Positions 1 through 19,000 of a stretch of 24,444 nucleotides of DNA are shown in pieces. Within the stretch, counting starts at the first letter, position 1; each line of letters starts with the position of its first letter. Source of the DNA: a virus. The position numbers were made by a program, and so were the translations under genes. Location: the IMG/VR virus record IMGVR_UViG_3300025719_000007, positions 1-24,444 of that record; one strand, written 5' to 3'. A model generated the notes under the pieces. It worked only from the letters and a program-made list of their open reading frames with translations, was not told where the DNA came from and made no database searches.

Positions 1-43
1 TCTTTCCTTTTTTAAATTCTAATTGTTCTACCGATATAGTCAT
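1..43 (-). CDS. start of an unidentified gene (partial, runs off the left edge)
   Basis: Only the first 14 codons lie in the window, reading MTISVEQLEFKKGK. The start is well supported: an AAGGAG ribosome binding site at 49-54 sits five bases before the ATG. The gene follows directly after an intrinsic terminator at 55-86, so its expression should depend on read-through, or on relief of that terminator. Function cannot be judged from 14 residues. Confidence 0.7.
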   Translation of the reverse strand, partial: MTISVEQLEFKKGK

Positions 44-54
44 TTTATCTCCTT

Positions 55-86
55 AAAAAAACGGGGGTTAGCAGGTCGGTACCCCC
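55..86 (-). terminator. intrinsic terminator directly before a ribosome binding site
   Basis: Read on the minus strand, GGGGGT (86-81) pairs with ACCCCC (68-63) around a 12-nt loop. One G and then seven U residues (61-55) follow. The U tract runs straight into the AAGGAG ribosome binding site of the next gene, whose ATG is at 43. This is the second of two terminators in tandem and could act as an attenuator for that gene. Confidence 0.8.
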
Positions 87-126
87 AGAACCGCCACAAA
101 GAAGCCACCCTGCCTGTAGCGAATTT

Positions 127-174
127 AAATAAAAAAAGAGGTACAAGCCCACTTGAGAAAGCCCGTACCCCTTT
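127..174 (-). terminator. intrinsic terminator with a 10-bp stem
   Basis: On the minus strand AAAGGGGTAC (174-165) pairs with GTACCTCTTT (144-135), ten pairs with one G-U. The loop is 20 nt, and the U tract continues to 131, followed by A and three more U. The loop holds CTCAAGTG (157-150), which is perfectly complementary to CACTTGAG further upstream at 248-241. It probably ends the short transcript that starts near 261. Confidence 0.8.
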
Positions 175-261
175 AGACATAACATCAAAGCCCAGACCAT
201 GAACTAGGCTAGTTATGCAGATAGTATTATTGTTGTGATACTCAAGTGTGTAGTTCATAGT
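127..261 (-). ncRNA. candidate structured phage small RNA or leader RNA
   Basis: A strong promoter (268-296) should start transcription at about 261, and an intrinsic terminator ends at about 127, giving an RNA of roughly 135 nt, or about 205 nt if it reads to the second terminator. The first 11 bases (261-251, ACTATGAACTA) pair with 206-196 (TAGTTCATGGT), ten Watson-Crick pairs and one G-U, so the 5' end would be sealed in a stem. The enclosed 44 nt can form a smaller AGTAT/ATACT hairpin (242-238 with 227-223). CACTTGAG (248-241) can pair with CTCAAGTG (157-150) in the terminator loop, which would make a pseudoknot. GGGCTT occurs three times (193, 164 and 150 as 5' ends). The only long ORF here crosses both terminators and has no ribosome binding site. 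I do not recognise a known RNA family. It could be a trans-acting RNA or a cis-acting leader of the gene starting at 43. Confidence 0.6.
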
Positions 262-267
262 ATGGTT

Positions 268-296
268 AATTTACACCCACACTAAGAGATTGTCAA
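268..296 (-). promoter_or_regulatory. sigma70-type promoter for the candidate small RNA
   Basis: On the minus strand a perfect -35 box TTGACA (296-291) is separated by exactly 17 bp from a -10 box TAAATT (273-268, four of six consensus bases). Initiation is expected near 261. It lies in the only gap between the virion gene block and the gene starting at 43, which is where a new transcription unit would be expected. Confidence 0.75.
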
Positions 297-6363: not shown

Positions 6364-7521
6364 TTATAGCCCCATTAATCCACCAAGAGCGGCAAGACCA
6401 CCTACACCTTGACCCAATTGGCCTGCTAATCCAAGTCCACCACGTTCTGCTGAAGCAGTTGTCGTTCCACCGTAGTTACCTTGAATCAGGTTCATGTAAT
6501 TCTGTAATTTCTGATCTTCTACGTTCTGATCGAACTGGTATCTATTGACATTTTCATCCAGTTGTTGCTGTGTCATTTCTCGTTGTCCATAACCCACATC
6601 ACCAAGACTTGTCATCATATCAATAGGTGCCTGTGCTACTGTTGGGTAAGCTCCTAGTCCAGCCCCTAACTTACTAGAAATTAAGGATTCTCCAAGTAAT
6701 GCTGGTTGGAATGCACCACTTGCTTGGGCTAACGCTTCTTGTGACCTTTGGCCTCTGGATTGCTCCATTAATTGAGCCGCACCCATCTGCTGTTGCTGTG
6801 CAGAATTAAAAGCATCCATACGAGATTGATTTGCAAAATCAGCAATTGATCTACCGACATTTCCTGCTGCAATACCTCCTGCTATATCACCTCTTGAACT
6901 ACCGCCCGGTTGATATGCTATTTGACTGGCTCTTAACGCAGGCATGACCTGCTCTTGAAAATTACCTACTGCATCACTAGTAAAACTATTTATTGCTTGA
7001 TCTATAAATGGATTCTGTTGAACACTGCCTGACAACATCTGCTGCATCAATGGACTTGCGTTTGCTTCGTCTAATATAGGTGCCCCAGTAAAGCCTGCTG
7101 AAGTTTGTAACGCTCCTTGACCAAAATCGCCCAAGCCTCTAGTTGCATTAAATATCGGGTTCGTATAAGGGTTAGCAAGCATCTCTCCAGTCAACGCACT
7201 TTCTGCACCAAAACTCATATTGGCAGGTCTTGCTCCTGTCGTATAATCTATAACTCCTTGTTGAAACGCAGTCTCATTCTGATTAAAAGGAGCAATCGTG
7301 TTACCGGGATAAAAATTAGGTTGACCTGAATTATATCTATTTTCTGCTGCTTCAAAGCCAGTTTTTAGGAATGGTTGTTGTCCTTCCCACGGATCAGCTT
7401 TTTGTATGGTTTGTGTGGAACCACCACCACCTGAACTACCGCCTTTTCCTCCACCCATCGGTGGGAGTTGACCTGTGATTAGATAATATGTGTATGCTTT
7501 TTTACTAAGGATTGTTTGCAT
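6364..7521 (-). CDS. putative internal or tail-associated virion protein, 385 aa
   Basis: The frame is open back to 7629, but the start is placed at the ATG at 7521, where GGAG lies six bases upstream; the longer version would overlap the preceding gene by 125 bp. The N-terminus is followed by a Gly/Ser linker and a segment WEGQQPFLKTGFEAA, then PNFYPGNTIAPFNQNETAFQ, a pattern I associate with a family of phage structural proteins of unknown function. The middle is Gln/Ala-rich and helical, and the C-terminus is a Gly/Leu-rich hydrophobic tail. It overlaps the upstream gene by 17 bp. Neighbours point to the ejection-protein set. Confidence 0.6.
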   Translation of the reverse strand: MQTILSKKAYTYYLITGQLPPMGGGKGGSSGGGGSTQTIQKADPWEGQQPFLKTGFEAAENRYNSGQPNFYPGNTIAPFNQNETAFQQGVIDYTTGARPANMSFGAESALTGEMLANPYTNPIFNATRGLGDFGQGALQTSAGFTGAPILDEANASPLMQQMLSGSVQQNPFIDQAINSFTSDAVGNFQEQVMPALRASQIAYQPGGSSRGDIAGGIAAGNVGRSIADFANQSRMDAFNSAQQQQMGAAQLMEQSRGQRSQEALAQASGAFQPALLGESLISSKLGAGLGAYPTVAQAPIDMMTSLGDVGYGQREMTQQQLDENVNRYQFDQNVEDQKLQNYMNLIQGNYGGTTTASAERGGLGLAGQLGQGVGGLAALGGLMGL

Positions 7522-11212: not shown

Positions 11213-11635
11213 CTATGGCTTCGGATGAGCTTTTTTAACATCTGCTCTTTTCTTAGAGATTGCATCCCACATAGTTGAATCACCTTCAGCCTTTTCAGCA
11301 AGAGCTACCGTTACATCTTCGATAGATGGGTAGGCTTCTCTTCTCTTATCCTCCCAAGTCATGGCATCAACTCTCTTTTTTTCATCTGCTATAGCATCGG
11401 TTACAACCTTTGCTTCAGCATCAATTTTTGCTTGCCCATGTTTTGCTGTGAGTGATTCAAGTTCAGGAAATTCTGTAATGTCAGTATTAGGTGAACCATC
11501 GTTATATTCAATATGACCCTTTGATCCGTCCCATTGGATTGCCCAAATGTTATCATCCAACCCTAAATCAAAATTCATAGAATCACCATCTATGGTCATA
11601 GCTTTATCTTCAGTAACTACCGTAACTATACTCAT
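11213..11635 (-). CDS. XkdW-like tail-associated protein, 140 aa
   Basis: The N-terminal 60 residues look beta-rich (FDLGLDDNIWAIQWDGSKG). The C-terminal half is helical and ends in a recognisable pattern, W.DKRR.AYPSIEDV..AL, then MWDAI..KRADVKKAHPKP. That resembles the C-terminal motif (YPS..DQL..L, then I..VK..YP) of XkdW-like and tail-fibre-assembly-like proteins. It overlaps the upstream gene by four bases (ATGT/TAA region) and follows the collar fibre by one gene, so a chaperone or fibre-associated role is plausible. The motif match is by eye and was not tested by a profile search. Confidence 0.5.
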   Translation of the reverse strand: MSIVTVVTEDKAMTIDGDSMNFDLGLDDNIWAIQWDGSKGHIEYNDGSPNTDITEFPELESLTAKHGQAKIDAEAKVVTDAIADEKKRVDAMTWEDKRREAYPSIEDVTVALAEKAEGDSTMWDAISKKRADVKKAHPKP

Positions 11636-11934
11636 GTTGTATTCCCCAAAAGATTATTTCGTTTTTCTACCAAGGTATTAAAAATCTTTTGCCCTTTAAC
11701 CGTTTCGTTTCTGAAAGATTCCAGAGCATGTGTTTGCCCTCTATTTGTTTGGCTCATTTCAACTTGTAACATTGGCAACCACGATATAGCACACGCCCAA
11801 TCTTCGATCTGTTCCTCCGATTGTGGATTTTTACCAACAATCTTTGTGTACCAAGCACAACGATGAATCTTGCCATCTTTAACTTCCTCACACGTTGAAC
11901 CTAACGGACAAGTGTTTTCTATTTCTAAACTCAT
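11632..11934 (-). CDS. four-cysteine protein, possible metal binder, 100 aa
   Basis: Four cysteines lie in the first half: Cys9, Cys15, Cys26 and Cys48, with His24 and several acidic residues nearby (CPLGSTCEEVKDGKIHRC). The second half is helical and charged (NRGQTHALESFRNETVKGQK). The spacing suggests a structural zinc or iron-sulfur site, but matches no motif I can name with certainty. The gene lies in the fibre region and overlaps the next gene by four bases. It is probably a conserved accessory gene of this phage group. Confidence 0.6.
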   Translation of the reverse strand: MSLEIENTCPLGSTCEEVKDGKIHRCAWYTKIVGKNPQSEEQIEDWACAISWLPMLQVEMSQTNRGQTHALESFRNETVKGQKIFNTLVEKRNNLLGNTT

Positions 11935-13057: not shown

Positions 13058-14170
13058 CTAGAAGCCCAATACTAGGGCTTTACCTGTACTGGAAATTGAT
13101 GGGTTCATAATTGTTGTTGATGAAGTTATGTTATACGCTAAAATATCTAAATTAGCTCCAAGCTGTGGTGATGTGTCATCAGAAACTTCTGAAATCATAC
13201 CGCTTGTTGAGACTGCGGCAACTTGCCATGCTGATCCACTGTACACTCTTAAATTATCAGCAGAAGTATTAAAATAAAGATCGCCTGCACTTAATGCGTC
13301 ACCATCATTATCGGTTGCTGGGTCGCTTGACTTAGCCCCTAAATAGGTATCATCAAATGTATCGGCTGAAGCGGCTGCTGCTGTAGCTGAACTTGCTGCT
13401 GCGGTGGCACTTGAAGCACTTGCCGTAGCACTGGTTGAACCTGCACTCGCACTGGATGCGGCTGCTGTGGCTGAACTTGCCGATGCCGTGGCAGATGTTG
13501 CGGCTGCATTTTTTGAAGTGGTCGCTGATGAAGAACTTGCACTCGCTTTTATACTGTAATGTTTTGCTGAATATTCGGATGTGTCTACCGTGTCATCTTC
13601 TGCATTAGTTGCCCACTCTTTAGCGGCACCCTTACCTGAAGTATCAGTTACACCTGTACCGCCTATAGCATACGCTTTAGAAGAGTATTCACTGCTTGCA
13701 ACTGTCCCATCTGTTTTAGTAGCCCAGTCTTCTGCAAGATTTGCTACCCAGCTGAGTTGAGCCGAACCGTTTGTTTTTAGTATATAACCAGCAGAACCAT
13801 CGGCTTGAGGCCATTTCAACCCATCTAGGATTAAATCCCCTGTCCCGTTAGGCGTGATGGTGACATCACCATTACTGTCTGTTGATGTAATAGCATTACC
13901 ATTTATATCTAAATTATCTACTTTTAGGTTGTCTATCTTACTTGAACTGTCAACTACAATTGCCTTTGATGCAGTTAAAGCTCCTGCTGTGACATCAACA
14001 AAATTAAGTTCAGAATGCGTAGAAGAGACAACACCAGAAATATTGGGGAAGTCAGTCAACAACATGCTTTTGATATTTCTTATATGATCGTCACCTTCTG
14101 ACCTTGGATCAGTCCCAAGTGGGTTTGTAGCGTCAAGATCATCTAGGTGGGTTACACTTTCTAAGCCCAT
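13058..14170 (-). CDS. tail fibre protein with Ala/Ser stalk, 370 aa
   Basis: Residues 1-112 form an N-terminal domain closely related to that of the 289-aa protein at 14578-15447 (shared LESVT..DDL.A.NP, SEGDDHIRNIK, TDFPNI.GV.S, TDSNGD and PNGTGD), probably the virion anchor. Residues 147-170 and 185-209 hold two copies of an E.WA...V..SEYS.K.Y.I module common in fibres. Residues 208-268 are an Ala/Ser/Thr-rich stalk with a 21-residue repeat. Residues about 273-320 include SDPATDNDGDALSAGDLYF and VYSGSAWQV, another frequent fibre module. The protein ends in the tag TGKALVLGF. It is probably trimeric. Confidence 0.75.
   Translation of the reverse strand: MGLESVTHLDDLDATNPLGTDPRSEGDDHIRNIKSMLLTDFPNISGVVSSTHSELNFVDVTAGALTASKAIVVDSSSKIDNLKVDNLDINGNAITSTDSNGDVTITPNGTGDLILDGLKWPQADGSAGYILKTNGSAQLSWVANLAEDWATKTDGTVASSEYSSKAYAIGGTGVTDTSGKGAAKEWATNAEDDTVDTSEYSAKHYSIKASASSSSATTSKNAAATSATASASSATAAASSASAGSTSATASASSATAAASSATAAAASADTFDDTYLGAKSSDPATDNDGDALSAGDLYFNTSADNLRVYSGSAWQVAAVSTSGMISEVSDDTSPQLGANLDILAYNITSSTTIMNPSISSTGKALVLGF
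13385..13495 (-). repeat. Ala/Ser stalk repeat inside the fibre gene
   Basis: The 16 residues SATASASSATAAASSA occur at residues 226-241 and again at 247-262 of the encoded fibre protein, 21 residues apart. The DNA copies are diverged at third positions, so the repeat is kept at protein level. It probably sets the length of a helical stalk. Confidence 0.6.
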
Positions 14171-14577: not shown

Positions 14578-15447
14578 TTATGCGGATAATGGCCCAGTTG
14601 TGAGTCCACCTTGACCGACTATGTACCAGTTACCATTTGTAAAAAGCAGATGCACACTATCTCCTGCATCGCTAAAAGCTATCGTTGTATAACCACCTGC
14701 GTTACTTGGGGTCAGTGTACCAACACCACCATCTACTTTAAGAATGATAAACAAATGCTGTCCTTCCACTCCATCCGCCAAGGTTCCTGCATCGGCACTT
14801 GTCGTAGTCCATTCTGCGATTGATCCCGTTATTGGGATTGCTCCTGCACCACTTAAAGTAGCCGTTTCAGAAGTCATAAAACCACCTTGAACATCAACTT
14901 TACCAGACCCTTTTGGTATTAGATTTAAGTTGATATTAGAATCAGAACCTTCAGCCGCTAGAGCAGGCCCAGATGCAGAATCAGCATTATGTATTCCTAT
15001 ATAATTAACTGGGGTTGATGATTCAGTAAAGATAATATATTCGTCACCACCTGCGTCTTTAATTCCTTGGGTTGTATCAATCATGATAGAACAGGCATCA
15101 AAATCAACATCACCTGTTCCGTTTGGAGCAATCAATAAATCACCATTAGAATCGGTGGTTGATATAGTGTTGCCATCAAGGTCAATGTTATCAACATTAA
15201 TCGTATTTAGTTTGCTTGAGCTATCCAAGACTAACGCTTTAGAAGCTGCTACAGTACCTGCTGTTACACCATATAGTGCATTAAGCTCGGTATGTGTCGC
15301 ACTCATAACTCCACCAATGTTTGGGAAGTCTGTAGTAAGTGCTGTTTTTATGTTCCTTATGTGGTCATCACCTTCACTAACTGGATCACCCACAACAGGA
15401 TTTGATGCGTTTAAATCGTCTATGTTTGTTACAGATTCTAATGCCAT
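14578..15447 (-). CDS. tail fibre or tail-spike-like protein, 289 aa
   Basis: The N-terminal 125 residues match those of the 370-aa fibre protein downstream, so the two are paralogues sharing an attachment domain. The middle (about 130-195) reads as short beta repeats (GIKDAGGDEYIIFTESST, NYIGIHNADS, NINLNLIPKGSGKVDVQGG), a style seen in fibres and spikes. The last 80 residues form a separate beta domain (EGQHLFIILKVDGGVGTLTP, FSDAGDSVHLLFTNGNWY) that resembles capsid- or tail-decoration folds. It lacks the C-terminal tag of its paralogue. An AGGAGA ribosome binding site precedes the ATG. Confidence 0.7.
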   Translation of the reverse strand: MALESVTNIDDLNASNPVVGDPVSEGDDHIRNIKTALTTDFPNIGGVMSATHTELNALYGVTAGTVAASKALVLDSSSKLNTINVDNIDLDGNTISTTDSNGDLLIAPNGTGDVDFDACSIMIDTTQGIKDAGGDEYIIFTESSTPVNYIGIHNADSASGPALAAEGSDSNINLNLIPKGSGKVDVQGGFMTSETATLSGAGAIPITGSIAEWTTTSADAGTLADGVEGQHLFIILKVDGGVGTLTPSNAGGYTTIAFSDAGDSVHLLFTNGNWYIVGQGGLTTGPLSA

Positions 15448-16685: not shown

Positions 16686-16702
16686 GTGATTCTCCGTATA
16701 AA

Positions 16703-16722
16703 GGGGGGCTGTTACACCCCCC
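16703..16722 (-). terminator. G6/C6 hairpin terminator after the major capsid gene
   Basis: On the minus strand GGGGGG (16722-16717) pairs with CCCCCC (16708-16703) around an 8-nt loop (TGTAACAG), followed by TTTATA. It lies 22 bases after the capsid stop codon. A partial terminator here would leave much more capsid mRNA than mRNA for the tail genes that follow, as expected from virion stoichiometry. Confidence 0.75.
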
Positions 16723-18800: not shown

Positions 18801-18828
18801 TTATTTTCTCCTTAATGTACGATTTTAC

Positions 18829-18857
18829 TTGACAAGCCCTTTTTTGAGGGTTATATT
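18829..18857 (+). promoter_or_regulatory. near-consensus promoter on the plus strand, opposite to the operon
   Basis: A perfect TTGACA (18829-18834) and TATATT (18852-18857, five of six consensus bases) are separated by exactly 17 bp. The spacer contains the inverted repeat CCCT/AGGG (18837-18840 and 18847-18850). Transcription would start near 18864 and run against the head genes, across a 162-bp gap and into the 3' end of the decoration-like gene. The site is predicted from sequence only. Confidence 0.5.
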
Positions 18858-18865
18858 AGAAAAAG

Positions 18866-19000
18866 ATGTTCAAAAAGTTTAACCAACTACTAAAAGCAAA
18901 AAGCAAAACCTTTGAAGCCTCTCTTCAAACTTCACTCAAAATCAAAGGGATAAACCATAAAATTAACTTGTTGACGCTCCAATTCCAGCAACTACAGTAG
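18866..19000 (+). CDS. possible short antisense ORF, 44 aa
   Basis: An ATG lies eight bases after the -10 box of the plus-strand promoter and opens 44 codons, starting MFKKFNQLLKAKSK and basic throughout its first half. There is no clear ribosome binding site, so it would have to be translated as a nearly leaderless message. It overlaps the end of the decoration-like gene by 38 bp in the convergent direction. The coincidence with the promoter is the only support; the transcript may instead act as antisense RNA. Confidence 0.25.
   Translation: MFKKFNQLLKAKSKTFEASLQTSLKIKGINHKINLLTLQFQQLQ
18911..18929 (-). other. small perfect hairpin in the gap before the scaffold gene
   Basis: TTTGAAG (18911-18917) and CTTCAAA (18923-18929) form a perfect 7-bp inverted repeat with a 5-nt loop. 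On the minus strand it is followed by a T-rich stretch (GGTTTTGCTTTTTGCTTTT). It could be a weak terminator after the decoration-like gene, but the stem is AT-rich and the U tract is interrupted. Confidence 0.35.

Follow-up and report, generated by a model that had tools for sequence, protein, structure and literature searches.

The locus at the end of this phage record raises the question of why a strong promoter should stand directly ahead of a strong terminator at the border between the virion operon and the next gene. The stretch that we analysed (the window, 24,444 nt) is a 24.4-kb record and a fragment of an uncultured phage whose lineage is podovirus-like and without cultured members. 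Its minus-strand genes run in the order large terminase, portal, scaffold, major head protein, tail and ejection proteins, and a last virion gene of 369 aa (304-1413). With its counterparts in Microcystis phage Mel-JY34 and in Pseudomonas phages, tf among them, the 525-aa virion protein shares no more than 36% identity, and by this measure the named phages are only distant relatives. A blastn search with the first 8 kb of the record returned no match, and no relative was found with the last virion protein, a 593-aa protein or the start of the next gene as queries; the close relatives that we found via the capsid and ejection proteins stop short of the leader locus.

We note several features elsewhere in the virion operon. 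A hairpin of the GGGGGG/CCCCCC type (16701-16722) lies directly 3' of the major head protein gene, after which phage tf likewise has an annotated terminator. Two tail-fibre-like genes (13058-14170 and 14578-15447) share a related N-terminal region, as judged from cross matches, and are probably a duplication. Between the scaffold gene and the preceding gene is a gap (18801-18962) that contains a plus-strand TTGACA-17-TATATT that is exact and invariant in 10 contigs while its spacer varies; adjoining it on the minus strand is the stretch GGTTAAACTTTTTGAACATCTTT, nearly invariant and unique in the window, which may be a late promoter or operator. The same gap holds a hairpin, TTTGAAG/CTTCAAA, with a compensatory change in one contig (L005).

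The promoter at the border was described in an initial annotation of this DNA as TTGACA, a 17-bp spacer and TAAATT at 296-268 on the minus strand, and we find this sigma70-type match to be exact, with GTG directly before the -10 element. The unit that it opens starts 8 bp beyond the last virion gene, whose stop codon is at 304, at the border between virion operon and next gene where it had been placed, and a homologous border in a distant relative, the contig L154, is arranged alike. It is very unlikely that the promoter match is due to chance and that the terminators alone are real. Over the whole region promoter-like sites are as common as chance would have them (46 observed against 51 expected in shuffled sequence), but an exact TTGACA with 17-bp spacing and at least four of six matches at -10 occurs in dinucleotide-shuffled copies of the gap with a P of 0.0012, and L154 has an equally placed exact TTGACA-17 site. 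Promoters were called by the rules of E. coli.

A 72-aa open frame (40-258, minus strand) spans the element, and we judge it not to be a gene. Its codon score against this phage's own usage is -0.23 bits per codon, below all 90 windows taken from real genes (lowest score, -0.05), and it has no Pfam or PHROGs family and no matching contig in the viral collection. We rejected a coding reading, which is largely refuted, because of this low score and the lack of relatives, and the initial annotation's view that no convincing gene follows the promoter is thereby upheld. There is scarcely any chance that the frame is a leaderless or translationally coupled gene: an ATGAA at +4 in both the window and L154 and the overlap of the frame's TGA with the next ATG would suit such a gene, but the frame has no Shine-Dalgarno sequence and L154 has at its position only an unrelated 20-codon frame.

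The RNA predicted from this promoter would run from a start near 261 to the U tract of an intrinsic terminator, T1, and would be about 132 nt long (130-261, minus strand). T1 (135-174, minus strand) is a G+C-rich hairpin with a 16-bp stem followed by U7, has a folding energy of -21.9 kcal/mol on its own (z -6.2) and is the only strong terminator at the virion/RecE border. A second terminator-like hairpin, T2 (55-87, minus strand), is weaker (-10.9 kcal/mol, z -1.6) and is followed by U7 that abuts the Shine-Dalgarno sequence AAGGAG of the next gene (ATG at 43-41). Tandem terminators had been proposed here; T1 is strong, but T2 is weak and has no counterpart in L154, from which the tandem arrangement is absent. 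Between T1 and T2 lies a further hairpin (91-122, minus strand), the left part of which can form an H-type pseudoknot with T2 ahead of the RecE-like gene (61-115; GGCAGG/CCTGCT with TGGGGGT/ACCCCCG). This possible pseudoknot is matched by 5 of 500 shuffles, and none was found before the RecE ribosome site in L154.

The 5' end of the predicted RNA coincides with that of an 11-bp stem (251-261 with 196-206, minus strand) that has one G-U pair and begins at the predicted first base. Stems of 11 bp with at most one G-U pair arise in 0.6% of shuffled leaders, and in 0.05% do they start within the first 3 nt. This stem is dominant only when the first ~70 nt have been made, with pair probabilities mostly above 0.88; in the full leader its pairing probability is 0.002 and a mutually exclusive middle hairpin of 7+7 bp (218-177, minus strand) takes its place. 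Because of this displacement, folding predictions present the 11-bp stem as a nascent rather than a final feature of the leader RNA. Thus the earlier observation that stem and promoter agree on one 5' end survives as a coincidence of position, not as a fold that is stable in the complete RNA. The 142-nt stretch as a whole is more stably folded than any of 200 shuffles (z -4.1), largely owing to T1, and the middle of the leader is unpaired and A/C-rich. Searches of Rfam returned no match for the window at the gathering score and none for the window and L154 loci at a lax threshold, which supports the initial annotation in that it recognised no known RNA family, and tRNA and tmRNA searches found nothing.

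Comparative evidence comes from L154, a 33.6-kb contig that we found on scanning with the alignment of a 144-aa protein that is conserved. Its gene order is that of the window, and the virion proteins are 31-62% identical (62% for the 525-aa virion protein, 61% for the ejection protein, 40% and 31% for two further large proteins); next after these genes comes one for a 269-aa transglycosylase-like internal virion protein, the positional counterpart of the window's last virion gene. Compared with named phages, L154 proteins give distant, non-syntenic matches only. Seventeen bp past the last virion gene of L154 is a promoter, TTGACA-17-TAGAGT (11358-11386), and about 127 nt past its predicted start is a strong intrinsic terminator (~11477-11520), again a G+C-rich hairpin before a U run, with a long stem, U6 and an energy of -21.7 kcal/mol. 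Window and L154 thus have in common the border position, the exact TTGACA, the 17-bp spacer, the GTG before the -10 element, the distance from the -10 element to an ATGAA, and the placing of that ATGAA within the first hairpin arm; terminator strength is alike, and the predicted RNAs measure 132 nt and ~127 nt.

What the two phages do not share is the sequence of the leader. From +1 to T1 the two loci, on which this comparison rests, align no better than shuffled sequence (the score was reached by 86 of 500 shuffles). The specific 11-bp stem put forward by the initial annotation is not kept as such, since L154 has instead a 7-bp hairpin with a different loop. Outer pairs differ beside an AUGAA/UUCAU core common to both phages, which, from two loci, is only a hint and not a claim of covariation. 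A switch between competing stems (the 11-bp stem and the middle hairpin) was considered and dropped, there being no such competition in L154. The recurrence of the promoter-terminator unit at the corresponding place in a distant relative makes it probable that the unit at the virion/recombination border is a real regulatory RNA. We also note that L154 has a second strongly structured stretch (11521-11665; MFE -45.8 kcal/mol over ~150 nt) between the counterpart of T1 and a 46-codon TTG frame.

The unit is also rare. For scanning, a unit was taken to be a good promoter that has, 60-220 nt farther on, a stem of 10 bp or more together with a U run; on both strands of the window, of L154 and of the rest of the L154 record there is exactly one such unit per phage, at this border. 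Over all the related loci examined (3.83 million strand-bases), the same kind of scan returned, apart from L154 and L172, which duplicates L154's record, a single unit; this one, in Venkman, falls within a gene and was set aside as a spurious coding-sequence artefact. Many of the scanned loci overlap, so that this count shows rarity and does not give an exact P value. In the more distant relatives looked at (G009, phage tf and contigs of 30-37 kb) the unit is absent and the border is convergent or different. In one further locus, L086, an apparent gap before an exonuclease gene (6516-6738) can be read, once the frame is shifted, as a coding stretch that resembles a signal peptide, and may be a sequencing frameshift and not an intergenic region.

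What lies beyond T1 bears on the purpose of the unit. The window covers only the first 43 bp of the next gene (1-43, minus strand), which is cut by the end of the record; because its predicted start, MTISVEQLEFKKGK, resembles the first residues of L154's RecE-like exonuclease, MTITAEQIKFRKGK, this gene is very probably RecE-like. In L154 the 46-codon TTG frame is followed by the RecE-like exonuclease (phrog_434, E 2e-37), an Erf-like annealing protein and a single-strand binding protein, so that the block reads recE, erf, ssb and then dnaB. Between T1 and the RecE gene we find no clear sigma70 promoter in either phage: the best sites match at 8 or 9 of 12 positions and have a poor -10 element or a predicted start that comes no earlier than the first frame's start codon. 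As no clear promoter follows T1, expression of the RecE gene from the border promoter would need readthrough of T1.

A promoter that is kept ahead of a terminator through deep divergence must make something useful, which is either the short RNA or, past T1, the RecE operon. The absence of a good sigma70 site between T1 and the RecE gene leads us to favour, tentatively and at something short of an even chance, the possibility that the unit is the terminated leader of a recombination/replication operon that is opened by antitermination. That the unit is transcribed, where its RNA begins and ends, that termination takes place in vivo and that antitermination follows are all inferred. A host-type RNA polymerase would start near 261 and by default stop at T1, freeing an RNA of ~130 nt, while T1 would also keep late virion transcription out of the RecE-like operon. 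The genes behind T1 would be switched on once polymerase becomes terminator-resistant, through an N- or Q-like phage factor that loads at the promoter or leader, through the folded leader itself (put-like), or through a change in leader folding. Consistent with a terminated leader, L154 has the unit at the homologous border, its -10 to ATGAA spacing unchanged and its RNA nearly as long, despite leaders that no longer align, and the unit is otherwise almost absent from the loci scanned. The layout of promoter, two hairpins within the first ~85 nt and terminator resembles promoter-proximal antitermination sites, and recE, erf, ssb and dnaB are the kind of genes found behind terminators in lambdoid early operons, where early genes are preceded by terminators (PMC9378689).

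The initial annotation had instead proposed a dedicated small RNA of about 135 nt. An RNA with its own promoter and terminator, near 130 nt long and noncoding, fits what we find, but "dedicated" is one of two readings, and a terminated leader fits the unit's position at least as well. We rank second, as possible but rather unlikely, a free trans-acting phage RNA of ~130 nt that ends at T1 and acts by binding a protein or by pairing with messages of the host or the phage. Its strong promoter, its strong terminator with U7, the 5'-terminal stem, the unpaired A/C-rich middle and the conserved length and position would all suit such an RNA; nevertheless, the leader sequence is not conserved across the two phages, so that there is no seed to point to, and a terminated leader would yield every such RNA too. 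Third, and unlikely, is ordinary punctuation, whereby T1 ends the virion operon and the promoter gives low RecE expression via partial, unregulated readthrough. That T1 is the sole strong terminator at the border, and that the virion operon of phage tf ends with annotated terminators, would agree with punctuation, but a promoter upstream of a terminator is unusual, and both the promoter and its distance to the terminator are kept in the two phages.

Some observations count against the terminated leader that we favour. Of the L154 phage's proteins, ~20 distinct ones were scanned and none was recognised as an antiterminator of a known family; the window is without that half of the genome, and the unit is seen at two loci. 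On reading the leader we saw no nut box A, the promoter spacers of the window and L154, read directly, share no Q-binding repeat, nor is there a conserved alternative structure that overlaps T1. The promoter that drives recE could also be a phage-specific one outside the rules of our scan. Of the ways to resistance, it is quite unlikely that the leader RNA alone, without a phage protein, gives readthrough of T1, which would make it a put-like antiterminator of a new sequence class on a RecE/Erf operon.

If a terminated leader is the correct reading, then the unit would be what switches between two blocks of genes in a group of phages that only metagenomes have revealed. A small, clean construct (promoter, ~130 nt, terminator and reporter) could then test whether readthrough takes a phage protein or the RNA alone. 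The unit also adds a candidate noncoding RNA of a kind missed by family libraries, in which the sequence drifts while the layout stays.

In the PL operon of bacteriophage λ, antitermination through nutL and N controls a block of recombination genes. Here we recognise no box A, and no N-like gene lies between promoter and terminator. Distant relatives of the phage carry annotated Q-like genes. The unit resembles the lambdoid pR'/tR'/Q arrangement in its strong promoter, short terminated RNA and gene block behind the terminator (PMC6606751), but the genes behind pR' are lysis and late genes rather than recombination genes, and here neither a Q-binding repeat nor, among the ~20 L154-phage proteins scanned, a Q gene was recognised. 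As a short phage RNA, possibly free, the leader recalls PreS of λ and VpdS of VP882 (PMC12197685), from which it differs in having no target, no evidence of Hfq and no conserved sequence. In HK022, two put hairpins downstream of PL make polymerase resistant to terminators (PMC9378689). The put RNAs have a sequence core in common, whereas the leaders of the window and L154 have none in common with each other, and hairpin spacing and length differ from those of put. Two hairpins are nevertheless predicted before T1 in both phages, the 5' hairpin of the window differing between the nascent and the full-length fold, and their place just past a sigma70 promoter, before a terminator and an early operon, is like the layout of HK022 putL (PMC9378689).
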